Virus record (IMG/VR): IMGVR_UViG_3300028025_000606
Coordinates: 1-31,272 of that record
Strand: one strand, 5' to 3'
Origin: a virus
Length of the DNA stretch: 31,272 bases
Below, piece after piece: positions 4,316 through 6,944 of the stretch; the first letter of the stretch is position 1; every line of letters begins with the position of its first letter. A model generated the notes under the pieces. The model saw nothing but the letters and a program-made list of their open reading frames with translations. It was not told where the DNA came from and ran no database searches. The translations under genes were made by a program, and so were the position numbers.

Positions 4316-4786
4316 TTATTTAATTAAGGCTTGTCTGGCTGCTTCGTATTGGCTGTAGCATTGTTTGAGGCTGGCTCTGAGTTCGTCTGCTTCTCTAGCG
4401 ATCCCGATAAGAACAGCCCCATCCTCTCTGTAAAGCTCTTTTCCGGTACAACCGTCTTTTCCATTACTGGCAGTCGTGGACACTCCACTACTCTCGGTGC
4501 GGTTGGGACGGTGCTGCAAGCTGTTAAGCAAAGCGGTATTACGAGCATTAACTTCTCTAAGTTCACGGTTCTTATCCTCTCGTAGCTTGTCTGCATTACC
4601 TTGCATTACCTGTTCTTTTTCCCGCATTAAAGCCACATTAGCAGCGTATTCCTCAGCTAACTTAGCCTTCTCTTTATCCCATTGAGCCTGAACCTTAGCT
4701 TGACCAGCCTCATCACCTTGCCAATGACCTGCACCATAAGCAAAGACTACTGCTAAGACTGATCCAGCTATGAAGTACGGATTCAT
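4316..4786 (-). CDS. Rz: Rz-like inner-membrane spanin
   Basis: Inner-membrane half of the spanin pair that fuses inner and outer membranes at the end of lysis. Residues 4-20 (YFIAGSVLAVVFAYGAG) form one N-terminal membrane anchor; residues 30-95 are a charged coiled-coil region (AQWDKEKAKLAEEYAAN, REKEQVMQGNADKLRED); two cysteines lie in the periplasmic end. Length (156) and layout match Rz proteins. Its ATG overlaps the stop of the 52-residue secreted peptide gene (ATGA). The whole o-spanin gene lies inside this gene in another frame, as in lambda. Confidence 0.85.
   Translation of the reverse strand: MNPYFIAGSVLAVVFAYGAGHWQGDEAGQAKVQAQWDKEKAKLAEEYAANVALMREKEQVMQGNADKLREDKNRELREVNARNTALLNSLQHRPNRTESSGVSTTASNGKDGCTGKELYREDGAVLIGIAREADELRASLKQCYSQYEAARQALIK
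4324..4566 (-). CDS. Rz1: Rz1-like outer-membrane spanin, nested in Rz
   Basis: Outer-membrane lipoprotein spanin. From a GTG at 4566 the protein begins (M)NLEKLMLVIPLCLTACST, a short lipoprotein signal with an LTAC lipobox, then a proline-containing periplasmic part (PTAPRVVECPRLP). The GTG has GAGAGGA about eight bases upstream. The ATG-started frame at 4596 would place ten extra polar residues before the signal and looks wrong; an ATG at 4548 would remove the basic n-region. The gene is entirely inside Rz, a recognised spanin arrangement. Confidence 0.8.
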   Translation of the reverse strand: MNLEKLMLVIPLCLTACSTVPTAPRVVECPRLPVMEKTVVPEKSFTERMGLFLSGSLEKQTNSEPASNNATANTKQPDKP

Positions 4787-4941
4787 TTAGTCGGAACCTT
4801 AGTACCTTCTAATTTCTTATGAACCTTAATTGTCTTACATACTTCCTTACCTTTTTCCTTGTGGCAGACTTTCTTCATTTCACCACCAGCAAAGGTTAAG
4901 TTTACAGTCAGCATCAGTAAAGTTATCAATGCAATTTTCAT
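4783..4941 (-). CDS. short secreted cationic protein, 52 aa
   Basis: Translation gives MKIALITLLMLTVNLTFAGG, then EMKKVCHKEKGKEVCKTIKV and HKKLEGTKVPTK. The first 18 residues look like a Sec signal peptide with cleavage after TFA. The mature part, about 34 residues, is strongly basic and has two cysteines that could form a disulphide in the periplasm. The ATG is two bases after the upstream stop with GGAG eight bases before it, and its TGA overlaps the Rz start. The position between a holin-like gene and Rz suggests a lysis-related role, but no family is recognised. Confidence 0.7.
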   Translation of the reverse strand: MKIALITLLMLTVNLTFAGGEMKKVCHKEKGKEVCKTIKVHKKLEGTKVPTK

Positions 4942-4943
4942 AA

Positions 4944-5354
4944 TTAAATCTCCGGTTGTGGTGCAGCAGGTGGAGCAGCTTTACCGCCAAAACCAACAGA
5001 TACAGCAGACGATAAAGGCTCTAACGATGGCTCTTGACGCACTACAGTCGTAGTCGTTGTCACTATAGGCTTAGGAAGCTCAGCCTGTTTCTCTATGCTC
5101 GATGGTGGTGGTACGAACTGAGGCAATGCATCCTTACCTTTGACAGCGATTAACGTAGCCAAAGCACCGAGAATGTACTTAGACATATCCGATAGCAATA
5201 GGAAGAACTGCTTATCTGCTGGAGCCATACCTGACATTGGCTGTGTCACAAATACAACGCTATACATAGACAGACTAGCCATCATCATTAGGATCATGCA
5301 AAAGCAGATACCAATGGCAAACTTTAGCCAAGCATTTAGACTTTCTTCGTTCAT
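4944..5354 (-). CDS. holin-like membrane protein
   Basis: 136 residues with two probable membrane helices, about residues 10-34 (LKFAIGICFCMILMMMASL) and 50-71 (FLLLSDMSKYILGALATLI), joined by QPMSGMAPADKQ, followed by a long Pro/Thr/Val-rich soluble tail. Size, helix number and position beside the endolysin and spanins fit a holin. I recall similar two-helix proteins in lysis regions of aquatic phages, but no diagnostic motif exists. Its ATG overlaps the stop of the lipoprotein gene. It is the best holin candidate here. Confidence 0.6.
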   Translation of the reverse strand: MNEESLNAWLKFAIGICFCMILMMMASLSMYSVVFVTQPMSGMAPADKQFFLLLSDMSKYILGALATLIAVKGKDALPQFVPPPSSIEKQAELPKPIVTTTTTVVRQEPSLEPLSSAVSVGFGGKAAPPAAPQPEI

Positions 5355-5557
5355 TTAGCCACCTTCTCAGGTTTAGTTACATCGTCAGGACAGGTTTGAG
5401 TAGCCGTACATATAGGTGGCTTACAATCTGTGGCTTCCCAGTTAGCAGGGTCTTGACACTTATATCGAAATCTATCCTGACAAGCACTAAGCACCAAGCA
5501 CATGGAGAGCATGGTCATAATGTTTCTTACGATCTTCGAGTCCAATTGTGCCCCCAT
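5351..5557 (-). CDS. Cys-rich phage lipoprotein
   Basis: A basic n-region (DSKIVRN), a hydrophobic core (IMTMLSMCLVL) and the lipobox LSAC mark an outer-membrane or periplasmic lipoprotein. The mature part has four more cysteines (YKC, DCKPPIC, QTC) and begins QDRFRYKCQDPANW, a pattern I associate with small proteins beside lysis genes of aquatic podoviruses. Start uncertain: the ATG at 5557 has no ribosome-binding site, a TTG at 5545 has GGGGG five bases upstream, and the ATG at 5518 loses the basic residues. It overlaps the endolysin 3' end. Function unknown. Confidence 0.65.
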   Translation of the reverse strand: MGAQLDSKIVRNIMTMLSMCLVLSACQDRFRYKCQDPANWEATDCKPPICTATQTCPDDVTKPEKVAK

Positions 5558-6107
5558 TAATGCGTTTAGTTAATGTAAGAATGTCACCAGCATCAGCCCA
5601 TTGATTGAGCTTATTCGTCTCCCAAAACCAACAAGCAGACTGAGCAGCACCTTCAAACGTAGCTAGATACTCAGGGACATCGTTAATATCCATCTCTAAC
5701 GAGTCAGCAAAAGATTGATAATTAGACTTGCCAGTCAACTGAATTAATCCTCGTCCGCAAAATTTCCAACCCTCTTGACTAGCCTCATCACCATTACCCA
5801 TACGGTTAGCGTAAACCTTAGACGCTATGGCAACCTGCTTATTAGGACGAGATGCGTAATCATTCGCTATCTGATCGTTAGGGAAATACTTAGGGAATAT
5901 CTTACGGAGAGTAGCAGCCTTATAGTTTAGATTCTCTTTAAGAACCATAAAGCCACCAGACTCATGAGCGCATTGAGCGATAAACGCAGCCATCCTTCTC
6001 GGCGTATTAATATCGTAATCGGGGAATAGTTGTTCTAGCGCATGATGCCAATGTTCAACGTAGGGATTCTTCGGTAGGAGTTGTTTTAACTGGCTCAGAG
6101 TTAGCAT
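5487..6107 (-). CDS. endolysin, GH19 chitinase-like muramidase
   Basis: Glycoside hydrolase family 19 lysozyme that cuts peptidoglycan. From the ATG at 6107 (206 aa): CAHESGGF with catalytic Glu49, LKENLNY with Glu58, FPKYFP at 71-76, YANRMGNGDE at 99-108, GWKFCGRGLIQLTGKSNY at 113-130, and RINGGTIGLEDR at 182-193. All are core GH19 signatures. An ATG at 6125 exists, but the one at 6107 has GAGGA five bases upstream. There is no signal peptide, so export depends on a holin. It overlaps the lipoprotein gene downstream and the preceding membrane-protein gene. Confidence 0.92.
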   Translation of the reverse strand: MLTLSQLKQLLPKNPYVEHWHHALEQLFPDYDINTPRRMAAFIAQCAHESGGFMVLKENLNYKAATLRKIFPKYFPNDQIANDYASRPNKQVAIASKVYANRMGNGDEASQEGWKFCGRGLIQLTGKSNYQSFADSLEMDINDVPEYLATFEGAAQSACWFWETNKLNQWADAGDILTLTKRINGGTIGLEDRKKHYDHALHVLGA

Positions 6108-6315
6108 TTTTGTCCTCAAGTTCACGCAGCATTAAGTTGCGTATTCTTCTCATACGATCTATTTCAACGATAGCAGCATTAGTAGCATTGTTCATATCCA
6201 TGTACATAATGCCCATTACTGGTAAAGCAATCACTAGCACAAGACACAAGACCACCACGGCGATGAGGAGGCTCCACGGTACGTCTCGCTCATTCTTATC
6301 ATTATCATTAGCCAT
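6055..6315 (-). CDS. single-TM small protein, lysis-region
   Basis: From the ATG at 6315 the 86-residue protein begins MANDNDKNERDVPWSLL, with one membrane helix at about residues 15-37 (SLLIAVVVLCLVLVIALPVM), then a basic coiled segment (VEIDRMRRIRNLMLREL) and a polar tail. An in-frame ATG at 6399 would add 28 polar residues, inside the upstream gene. Neither start has a good ribosome-binding site; the shorter one resembles the start of related phage proteins I recall. It overlaps the endolysin start. Possible holin or antiholin partner, unproven. Confidence 0.6.
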   Translation of the reverse strand: MANDNDKNERDVPWSLLIAVVVLCLVLVIALPVMGIMYMDMNNATNAAIVEIDRMRRIRNLMLRELEDKNANSEPVKTTPTEESLR

Positions 6316-6944
6316 AGAAACCAACACGTTATGAACAGCACCGCGACTACTGATGTCATTTGTTTCTTGATTCTTCTTCTTATATTTTCCCGTTGGCATT
6401 TTGCTATATTAGCCAATCTAAGTTCTTCAGCGTGAGCAATTTCCTGTTCTGCAACAATCTTCTCTACTGTCTTTTCATACTTATGCCAAAGTGACCCTAG
6501 TTCTGCTGGAGCCTGATACACCATCATTTCACGTAACTCAGACATCATTGAATCAACTCTAGCTTCAATAATAATCTTACGTAATGCTCTGCGACCTACT
6601 GATTCTTCACCTTTATAGGCAGTCTTAATCTGTATTTCTTCTGCGAGTAAAGCCTTACCTAACTGATCCTGTGCATCTAATAACGCACCTAACTGATTAC
6701 CAATATCGGTAAATACATCGTTAGGATCAGCCTTAGCTATCTCCTGAATCCTAGCAACTTCTTGGTTATATTGAACTACCTGAGCATTAGAAGGATTAGG
6801 TATCTTATGAAACTGAGTTCTTAGATCATCTAATACTTCCTTAACGTCTCCTGCTGCACCTTTAATATCTTTGTATAACTGGCAACCCTTCTTTACAGCC
6901 GCTACAGCAGCATTAGCTAACGCTAGAAGTGTAAGTGGGTCCAC
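6234..6944 (-). CDS. membrane-anchored helical phage protein
   Basis: 236 residues from a GTG start (6944). The N-terminus MDPLTLLALANAAVAAVKKG is hydrophobic and amphipathic, the middle (30-190) is mostly charged helix, and a membrane helix lies at about 197-217 (SVVAVLFITCWFLWLMIMI). This layout recurs in podoviruses of aquatic bacteria just before the lysis genes; its function is not known to me. The last residues (ETYRGASSSPWWSCVLC) overlap the next gene in another frame by 82 bases or more, so the C-terminus may be less constrained. Confidence 0.6.
   Translation of the reverse strand: MDPLTLLALANAAVAAVKKGCQLYKDIKGAAGDVKEVLDDLRTQFHKIPNPSNAQVVQYNQEVARIQEIAKADPNDVFTDIGNQLGALLDAQDQLGKALLAEEIQIKTAYKGEESVGRRALRKIIIEARVDSMMSELREMMVYQAPAELGSLWHKYEKTVEKIVAEQEIAHAEELRLANIAKCQRENIRRRIKKQMTSVVAVLFITCWFLWLMIMIRMSETYRGASSSPWWSCVLC

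Follow-up and report, generated by a model that had tools for sequence, protein, structure and literature searches.

A conserved, putatively secreted mini-protein paired with a C-terminal tail of holin-type proteins in uncultured tailed phages

The viral record IMGVR_UViG_3300028025_000606 of IMG/VR, analysed here over positions 1 to 31,272 (the window), has in its lysis module an open reading frame (ORF) of only 52 codons, and this ORF is a real gene of the lysis modules of uncultured tailed phages. The gene follows the holin rather than Rz, and it is found together with a short C-terminal tail, of the kind GK.xP.Q..QPE[IL], that ends holin-type proteins encoded near the peptide. This pairing extends across two unrelated membrane-protein families and is well supported, if little corrected for kinship and linkage. 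Computation supports three points: the frame is conserved, its mature part is under selection, and the peptide co-occurs with the tail in both membrane-protein families. The product would be a small periplasmic partner of the tailed holin, and the likeliest role for it is regulation of hole formation in the manner of RI of phage T4, a reading that is given a probability of roughly 0.45.

The peptide gene and its lysis cassette

The peptide gene is read from the minus strand, with an ATG start at 4941-4939 and a TGA stop at 4785-4783, and it is strand-specific in that the plus-strand translation of 4783-4941 gives stops (Table 1). The signal peptide, predicted by sequence rule only, is MKIALITLLMLTVNLTFA, and its residues and those of the cleavage site are visible in the window peptide and appear to be kept across relatives. 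The mature part, GGEMKKVCHKEKGKEVCKTIKVHKKLEGTKVPTK, is hydrophilic, with 11 Lys among 34 residues, a net charge of +7 and 2 Cys, and carries the motif IKVHKKLEGTKVP after a predicted beta hairpin. On reading the peptide for features of a spanin, neither a Cys at the cleavage site nor a hydrophobic segment after the signal was found; the hydrophilic mature part also has no transmembrane segment of the sort that a holin would require.

A preliminary description of this DNA, made from the letters alone, had proposed a small, easily missed peptide with a Sec signal, a basic mature part with two cysteines, a good ribosome site and ATGA coupling to Rz. These features can be recognised in the sequence, where the signal is of predicted Sec type, a GGAG lies 8 nt before the ATG and the TGA overlaps the ATG of 4316-4786, which matches Rz-like spanins. 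No trustworthy match to the peptide was returned from Pfam, NCBIfam, PHROGs, PADLOC or PDB. Of 20 members, 14 weakly match phrog_24206 (best E 0.002) and 5 weakly match NF040554 (best E 0.0009); these hits were set aside as the matching of Lys/His-rich sequence.

Table 1. Features of the lysis cassette in the window
Feature	Positions	Strand	Basis
Putatively secreted mini-protein gene, 52 residues, stop included	4783..4941	minus	Translation; relatives
GGAG ribosome site, within final codons of upstream gene	4950..4953	minus	8 nt before ATG
ATGA overlap of peptide stop and Rz start	4783..4786	minus	Kept in 137 of 143 loci with window-type Rz family
Putative Sec signal peptide (residues 1-18), with Ala at -1	4888..4941	minus	Sequence rule; AlphaFold2 helix 2-17
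Mature basic part, residues 19-52	4786..4887	minus	Alignments; AlphaFold2 strands; pN/pS 0.087
Rz-like inner-membrane spanin, 156 aa	4316..4786	minus	PHROG Rz-like spanin, best E 5e-6
Rz1-like lipoprotein nested in Rz, lipobox LTAC, putative start	4324..4548	minus	Sequence reading
Holin-like protein (FVTQP type), two hydrophobic segments, Pro-rich linker, C-terminal tail	4944..5354	minus	phrog_25359, E 1e-7
Conserved C-terminal tail of holin-like protein, VGFGGKAAPPAAPQPEI	4947..4997	minus	Sequence
Small lipoprotein-like protein rich in Cys, whose start probably lies further inside the frame	5351..5557	minus	In 189 of 235 sources
GH19 endolysin	5487..6125	minus	Pfam PF00182, E 6.9e-8; phrog_181, E 3.4e-75
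Small membrane protein opening the cassette	6055..6399	minus	In 143 of 235 sources

The PHROG matched by the holin-like protein is of unknown function, and its relative in the annotated record L237 has a weak hit to a holin PHROG (E 0.074; loci are numbered L throughout). The nested Rz1-like frame recurs in 143 of 235 sources; in the window its longer form, 4324-4596, has a weak PHROG match (E 0.079), and the short form, 4324-4548, has none at E 0.1. The Cys-rich protein, 5351-5557 in the window, has no match in Pfam or PHROGs. Its family, with a pattern of about RYxCQDPxNWxxxxCxPPxC...C, stands directly before the holin. Inspection by eye also shows it in phage records with annotation (L236, L237 and L238), among them Actinomycetia phage DSL-LC01.

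Two main cassette types share a core of endolysin, Cys-rich protein, holin-like protein and peptide. In the type found in the window, Rz and Rz1 come after the peptide, generally with the -4 ATGA overlap listed in Table 1. In the second type, the gene before the peptide is often that of another small membrane protein, holin92, and a different protein follows, with an upstream gene pair that weakly matches Rz-like spanins (first member E 2e-4 in L082; first member E 0.03 and lipoprotein partner 2e-5 in L139). This second, weakly Rz-like family is present in 51 of 235 sources. In large contigs, of up to 353 kb, the peptide comes after a different membrane protein and before a gene that looks DnaJ-like by eye. 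Hence, while the sequence features and the Rz coupling given in the preliminary description stand for the window, its emphasis on Rz is not general, since the downstream neighbour is not Rz in the second cassette type or in the large-contig loci.

Family size, conservation and predicted structure

One IMG/VR scan, with the peptide as query, yielded 509 confirmed matching stretches, and the best 80 of 509 were carried forward; after two more scans, which used distant members as queries, 234 loci had been retained, including one GTDB locus and some contigs twice. The peptide ORF was recovered by profile in 233 of these 234 loci, the exception (L149) being cut by the contig end. Among the 229 sources matching the first profile there are 155 distinct stretches of peptide DNA; with all scans together, the peptide is present in 311 loci and 221 distinct DNA stretches. 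No peptide was detected by tblastn in 50,697 phage records, a set that may leave out records very near the window, or in 72,556 plasmid records. GTDB contigs gave one match, L082, on a 5.2 kb scaffold with a phage-like lysis cassette. This scaffold is named as a Sphingobacteriales MAG, perhaps through a binning error.

The preliminary description had stated that its proposal would fall if no conserved frame were found in relatives with the same synteny; the search was carried out and the frame is strongly conserved, and a chance ORF is excluded because of this conservation. Purifying selection on the mature part is strong, with pN/pS values of 0.087 (n=53 sequences, 8 residues between the Cys) and 0.185 (n=41, 14 residues). 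The hydrophobic signals diverge widely; of their three length groups, the two larger ones give 0.455 and 0.587 (n=15 and 16) and the third gives 0.217 (n=7). All of these ratios are rough, because pS was left uncorrected and is close to saturation, and because similarity at the protein level was how the loci had been found. Every one of the 137 distinct mature peptides of the first set has exactly 2 Cys and a net charge of +4 to +10. The spacing between the two Cys varies from 8 to 22, and CK.[IV]K.HKK.EG is nearly fixed. Among 192 distinct C-terminal 45-mers, found by profile, HKK is present in 185 and HKKx[ED]G in 177. Two relatives from later scans, L443 and L449, are without the Cys part and retain the Lys-rich HKK-EGT part only, EVKKHKKAEGTKVP, and both adjoin weak GK tails. 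As the Cys part can be lost while this part is kept, the HKK-EGT motif looks like the working end of the peptide.

AlphaFold2, run with the window peptide and 90 relatives, predicts a signal helix at residues 2-17 and strands at 21-29 and 32-40 (mean pLDDT 66.5, pTM 0.27), in which C26 would stand opposite C35 if the strands pair symmetrically. In a relative with a longer loop the predicted strands are 21-27 and 46-52 (pLDDT 59.5), and symmetric pairing would again set the two Cys, 25 and 48, opposite each other. The models, which are of low confidence (pLDDT 66.5 and 59.5), have no helix in the mature part and give a weak hint of a disulfide-linked hairpin there.

Such a small cationic product of a lysis module might instead act on the envelope directly, binding lipopolysaccharide, the outer membrane or peptidoglycan and helping to break the outer layers in addition to the spanins, in the manner of a disruptin. 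According to PMC12819732, the archetype disruptin of phage phiKT (Holt et al. 2022) is a short amphipathic helix that was found via spanin-less phages. The peptide likewise is small and cationic (net +7 in the window) and belongs to a phage lysis setting, and its signal peptide, the consistent positive charge of the 137 mature forms and the retention of the Lys-rich part in the Cys-less L443 and L449 would all suit an envelope effector. Unlike the disruptin as described there, however, the window peptide has a signal and a predicted two-Cys hairpin, the low-confidence models showing no helix after the signal, and it has spanins alongside, Rz downstream and the nested Rz1-like frame. The presence of Rz and Rz1, in the window and in the 143 sources already mentioned, together with the second, weakly Rz-like family in 51, makes a disruptin-like role less likely. 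Moreover, conservation of the motif residue by residue (HKK in 185 of 192) exceeds what bulk charge would need, and an envelope effector does not predict the tie to the holin tail. An envelope role is considered rather unlikely and ranks second, behind the T4 RI-like reading.

Co-occurrence of the peptide with the holin tail

The annotated records L236, L237 and L238 have the same Cys-rich and holin genes, lack the peptide and encode a holin without GFGGKxAPxxPxQPEI. The co-occurrence was quantified by two further IMG/VR scans, one querying with the holin's membrane part and the other with the complete, tail-less protein of L238; neither query contained the peptide or the tail, and 80 loci were kept from each scan. 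A tail matrix, trained on the peptide-scan loci only, was then applied to these 160 loci of the FVTQP type, 159 of which have a usable ORF. The tail scores at least 22.8 in 25 of 25 loci with the peptide, including L298, which repeats a training contig, whereas only 2 of the 134 loci without it score at least 12 (L282 and L316, at 35.3 and 40.2) and the others remain at or below 10.3. Within the diverse subset L274-318, at a cut-off of 12, the tail is present in 25 of 25 loci with the peptide versus 2 of 20 without. No peptide follows the holin in L282 or L316, and a search of their contigs (53.5 and 20.8 kb), which had no positive control, was empty.

The second membrane-protein family, referred to as the GTA-holin type, is the one found in the large contigs. 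The L139 protein, the sole member of this type scanned, matches GTA_holin_3TM (PF11351) with an E of 1.6e-6 and 29.0 bits against a cut-off of 24.8, and also a holin PHROG. One of the two tail-bearing families is therefore like GTA_holin_3TM, judging from this one member, but the tailed protein matches only positions 58-122 of the 123 in the profile and adds a long linker and the tail. The scan for this family gave 80 loci with 78 recognised ORFs. With the peptide present, 39 of 51 score at least 20, while 12 have a weaker version of the tail, for example SGKKIVPTDDPVL; with the peptide absent, 26 of 27 score below 20, the tailed exception, L477, being on a contig cut 195 nt after the stop.

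A looser tail pattern, written after the 12 GTA-type tails scoring below 20 had been seen by eye, fits all 51 of the GTA-type peptide loci. Over the three holin scans together this pattern finds the tail in 76 of 76 loci with the peptide versus 7 of 156 without (67 of 67 versus 6 of 138 when distinct proteins are counted), and five of the seven tailed loci without a peptide have a related ...PMPSRPP or ...PAPSRPP form. The counts of 76 and 156 leave out the cut loci without a peptide (L322, L343, L384, L457 and L477, the last of these tailed) and three loci with no recognised holin ORF (L372, L456 and L473); L473 holds the peptide beside a protein with a tail-like ending, SGKLGPAPQQDPVL, that scores 7.8. 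Loci sharing contig or peptide DNA with the training set, namely L298, L399-402, L410 and L478, were retained.

In the reverse direction, 213 of 217 peptide loci have a gene for a tailed holin-type protein upstream of the peptide, as do 141 of 145 with distinct peptide DNA. The exceptions are L106, L123 and L125, which are without such a membrane protein, and L107, which has a divergent tail; L127 is also without an upstream tailed protein, but its contig is short upstream. The FVTQP holin was absent from the contigs of L106, L123, L125 and L127 in a search in which three control contigs were positive. The pairing suggests that the peptide and the tailed holin jointly control when or how the host bursts.

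Specificity of the association and the contribution of linkage

As a control for specificity, all gene clusters within 2.5 kb of the holins were compared (13 and 21 clusters in the two sets). The peptide cluster is the most tail-associated in both, with p values of 5e-8 and 3e-14 against 2e-3 and 4e-6 for the next cluster, and with tailed versus tail-less loci numbering 25 versus 1 in the FVTQP set and 48 versus 0 in the GTA set. The single tail-less locus is probably L277, which is similar in the signal part only. The second-placed cluster of the GTA set is the GH19 endolysin (33 tailed versus 1 tail-less, p 4e-6). Apart from the holins, only 4 of 2989 other ORFs score at least 12 on the tail matrix, and one of these 4 is in fact a holin-like protein that the name pattern had failed to pick up. 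Natural empty sites agree with the pairing. In the peptide-less loci L319-398 the Rz start lies at most 40 nt from the holin stop in 76 of 79, 59 of them with the same -4 overlap, and L403, L404, L411 and L466 have neighbours of the large-contig type, no peptide and other or altered tails.

The tail is conserved at the protein level. Its GK codons have pS values of 0.59 and 1.40 and pN values of 0.03 and 0.01, so that a cause at the level of DNA is ruled out for GK, where synonymous sites vary freely. Part of the conservation of PE[IL] may be at the DNA level, because PE[IL] overlaps the GGAG in the window.

A different tail, ...RN[TSV]RND, ends members of the same two membrane-protein families in the peptide-less loci L281, L296, L302, L435, L440, L452 and L470, and in L281 both membrane proteins stand in tandem, each with this tail. 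At L277:3824-4144 a peptide of secreted type with a similar signal and a different mature part, DCTQKKNATKLEC, comes after the endolysin, and the holin is without the GK tail. The linkers of tailed GTA-type proteins (L139, L151, L159 and others) are rich in Gly, Ala, Ser and Pro, with about 4 FG pairs per 100 residues, and resemble low-complexity sequence of the nucleoporin type.

It is conceivable that the peptide has a job unrelated to the holin, for instance against an incoming second phage, and that the tail shares its history merely through adjacency. The tail and the peptide adjoin in most loci, so joint transfer explains part of the association, and recombination in the low-complexity linker would move both together. 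The tree built for the holin domain, from 71 columns and with 5 starred branches, has 2 supported independent pairs, and 5 on the best tree, against the 6 or more that a sign test needs; it neither proves nor refutes independent joint change, and the kinship-corrected test of joint change is weak. A match to the Cor superinfection exclusion protein (phrog_1119), by 2 of 20 peptide members with a best E of 0.11, is not significant, although it points in the same direction. Linkage by itself does not readily account for a tail on two unrelated membrane-protein families, which in L134, L301 and L318 stand in tandem pairs with similar tails, or for the many second-type loci in which holin92 lies between the tail and the peptide. 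No distant copy of the tail in the same genome, which would have broken the linkage, was found in searches of 26 and of 20 contigs, where matches fell at places already known (L143 and L150, 2 of the 26; L107, L133, L160 and the tandem of L301, 4 of the 20). An explanation by linkage alone is judged unlikely in comparison with a functional partnership of the peptide with the holin.

Proposed mode of action

For the T4 RI-like reading, the peptide would be made in the cytoplasm, exported by Sec and shortened by cleavage to a basic mature form of some 34 residues. This protein may fold as a disulfide-linked hairpin that would present K-[IV]-K-x-H-K-K-x-E-G-T-x-V-P to its partner, the holin with the matching tail at the end of a long linker, with which it would make direct contact. 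Hole formation could in this way be tuned from the periplasmic side, and the action of the endolysin and Rz/Rz1 would be timed correctly. The peptide would delay lysis, and delay is chosen over promotion because of the T4 RI precedent only. Of the two roles that the preliminary description offered for the peptide, binding of lipopolysaccharide or peptidoglycan and regulation of lysis timing, the second fits best because the peptide co-occurs with a holin-type C-terminal tail.

The predicted topology places a constraint on such a contact. In the GTA type the mean number of Lys and Arg is 4.2 before the first transmembrane segment, 0.3 in the loop and 2.3 after the second, and the tail is predicted from this charge to be cytoplasmic; the FVTQP type is ambiguous. 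With a cytoplasmic tail, an exported peptide could meet it only after the hole opens or the tail flips. A GTA-type relative in Pseudomonas phage PA5oct (L479, 212216-212542) is annotated as structural by mass spectrometry, among other proteins detected by mass spectrometry, and the holin role of the GTA-type family is not settled in view of this annotation.

A peptide that is needed for hole formation by the tailed holin, or that speeds it, draws on the same tail association, and the peptide seems to depend on the tail rather than the reverse, since there are tails without the peptide and hardly a peptide without the tail; such a promoter is the least likely of the readings, as the tailed holins of L282 and L316 have no adjacent peptide, which thus seems not strictly required there, and the literature looked at offers no precedent.

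The delaying partner proposed here may also be part of something broader. It is a tentative possibility that the tail and the peptide form a portable two-part module, in which a short tag on unrelated holins is matched by a secreted mini-protein, shared by phages on small contigs and by phages on contigs several hundred kilobases long. Other tags, such as ...RN.RND, may then have other partners, and the tags could serve as interchangeable control addresses.

Relationship to known systems

RI of T4 is an antiholin of the periplasm whose signal peptide is cleavable (PMC8385771), and it is thought to block oligomerisation of the holin (PMC11413866). The peptide is like RI, which partners holin T, in being a small phage protein with a Sec signal, a pairing with a holin and a connection to lysis timing, the signal and the periplasmic site being predicted here (PMC8385771; PMC11413866). 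The holin association that characterises an antiholin of RI type was found both in the upstream genes (213 of 217) and in the peptide-independent scans (76 of 76). In sequence, BLASTP gave no alignment of T4 RI with the window peptide at E values up to 100. Among the matches listed in a search of the open-licence literature, the peptide is not described in titles or abstract openings. As far as these searches go, a secreted holin partner is of a known kind, and the family and its pairing with the tail are new.

Significance for phage lysis

To our knowledge, secreted partners of holins have been worked out in very few phages, with T4 RI as the model. The tail and the peptide together provide a marker for annotating lysis modules. 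Hundreds of matching stretches, tied to a readable tag on the holin and with none in the isolates and plasmids searched, would suggest that secreted control of holins is common in nature. Moreover, the general question of how lysis can be timed by a protein in the periplasm is made testable with two short synthetic genes.
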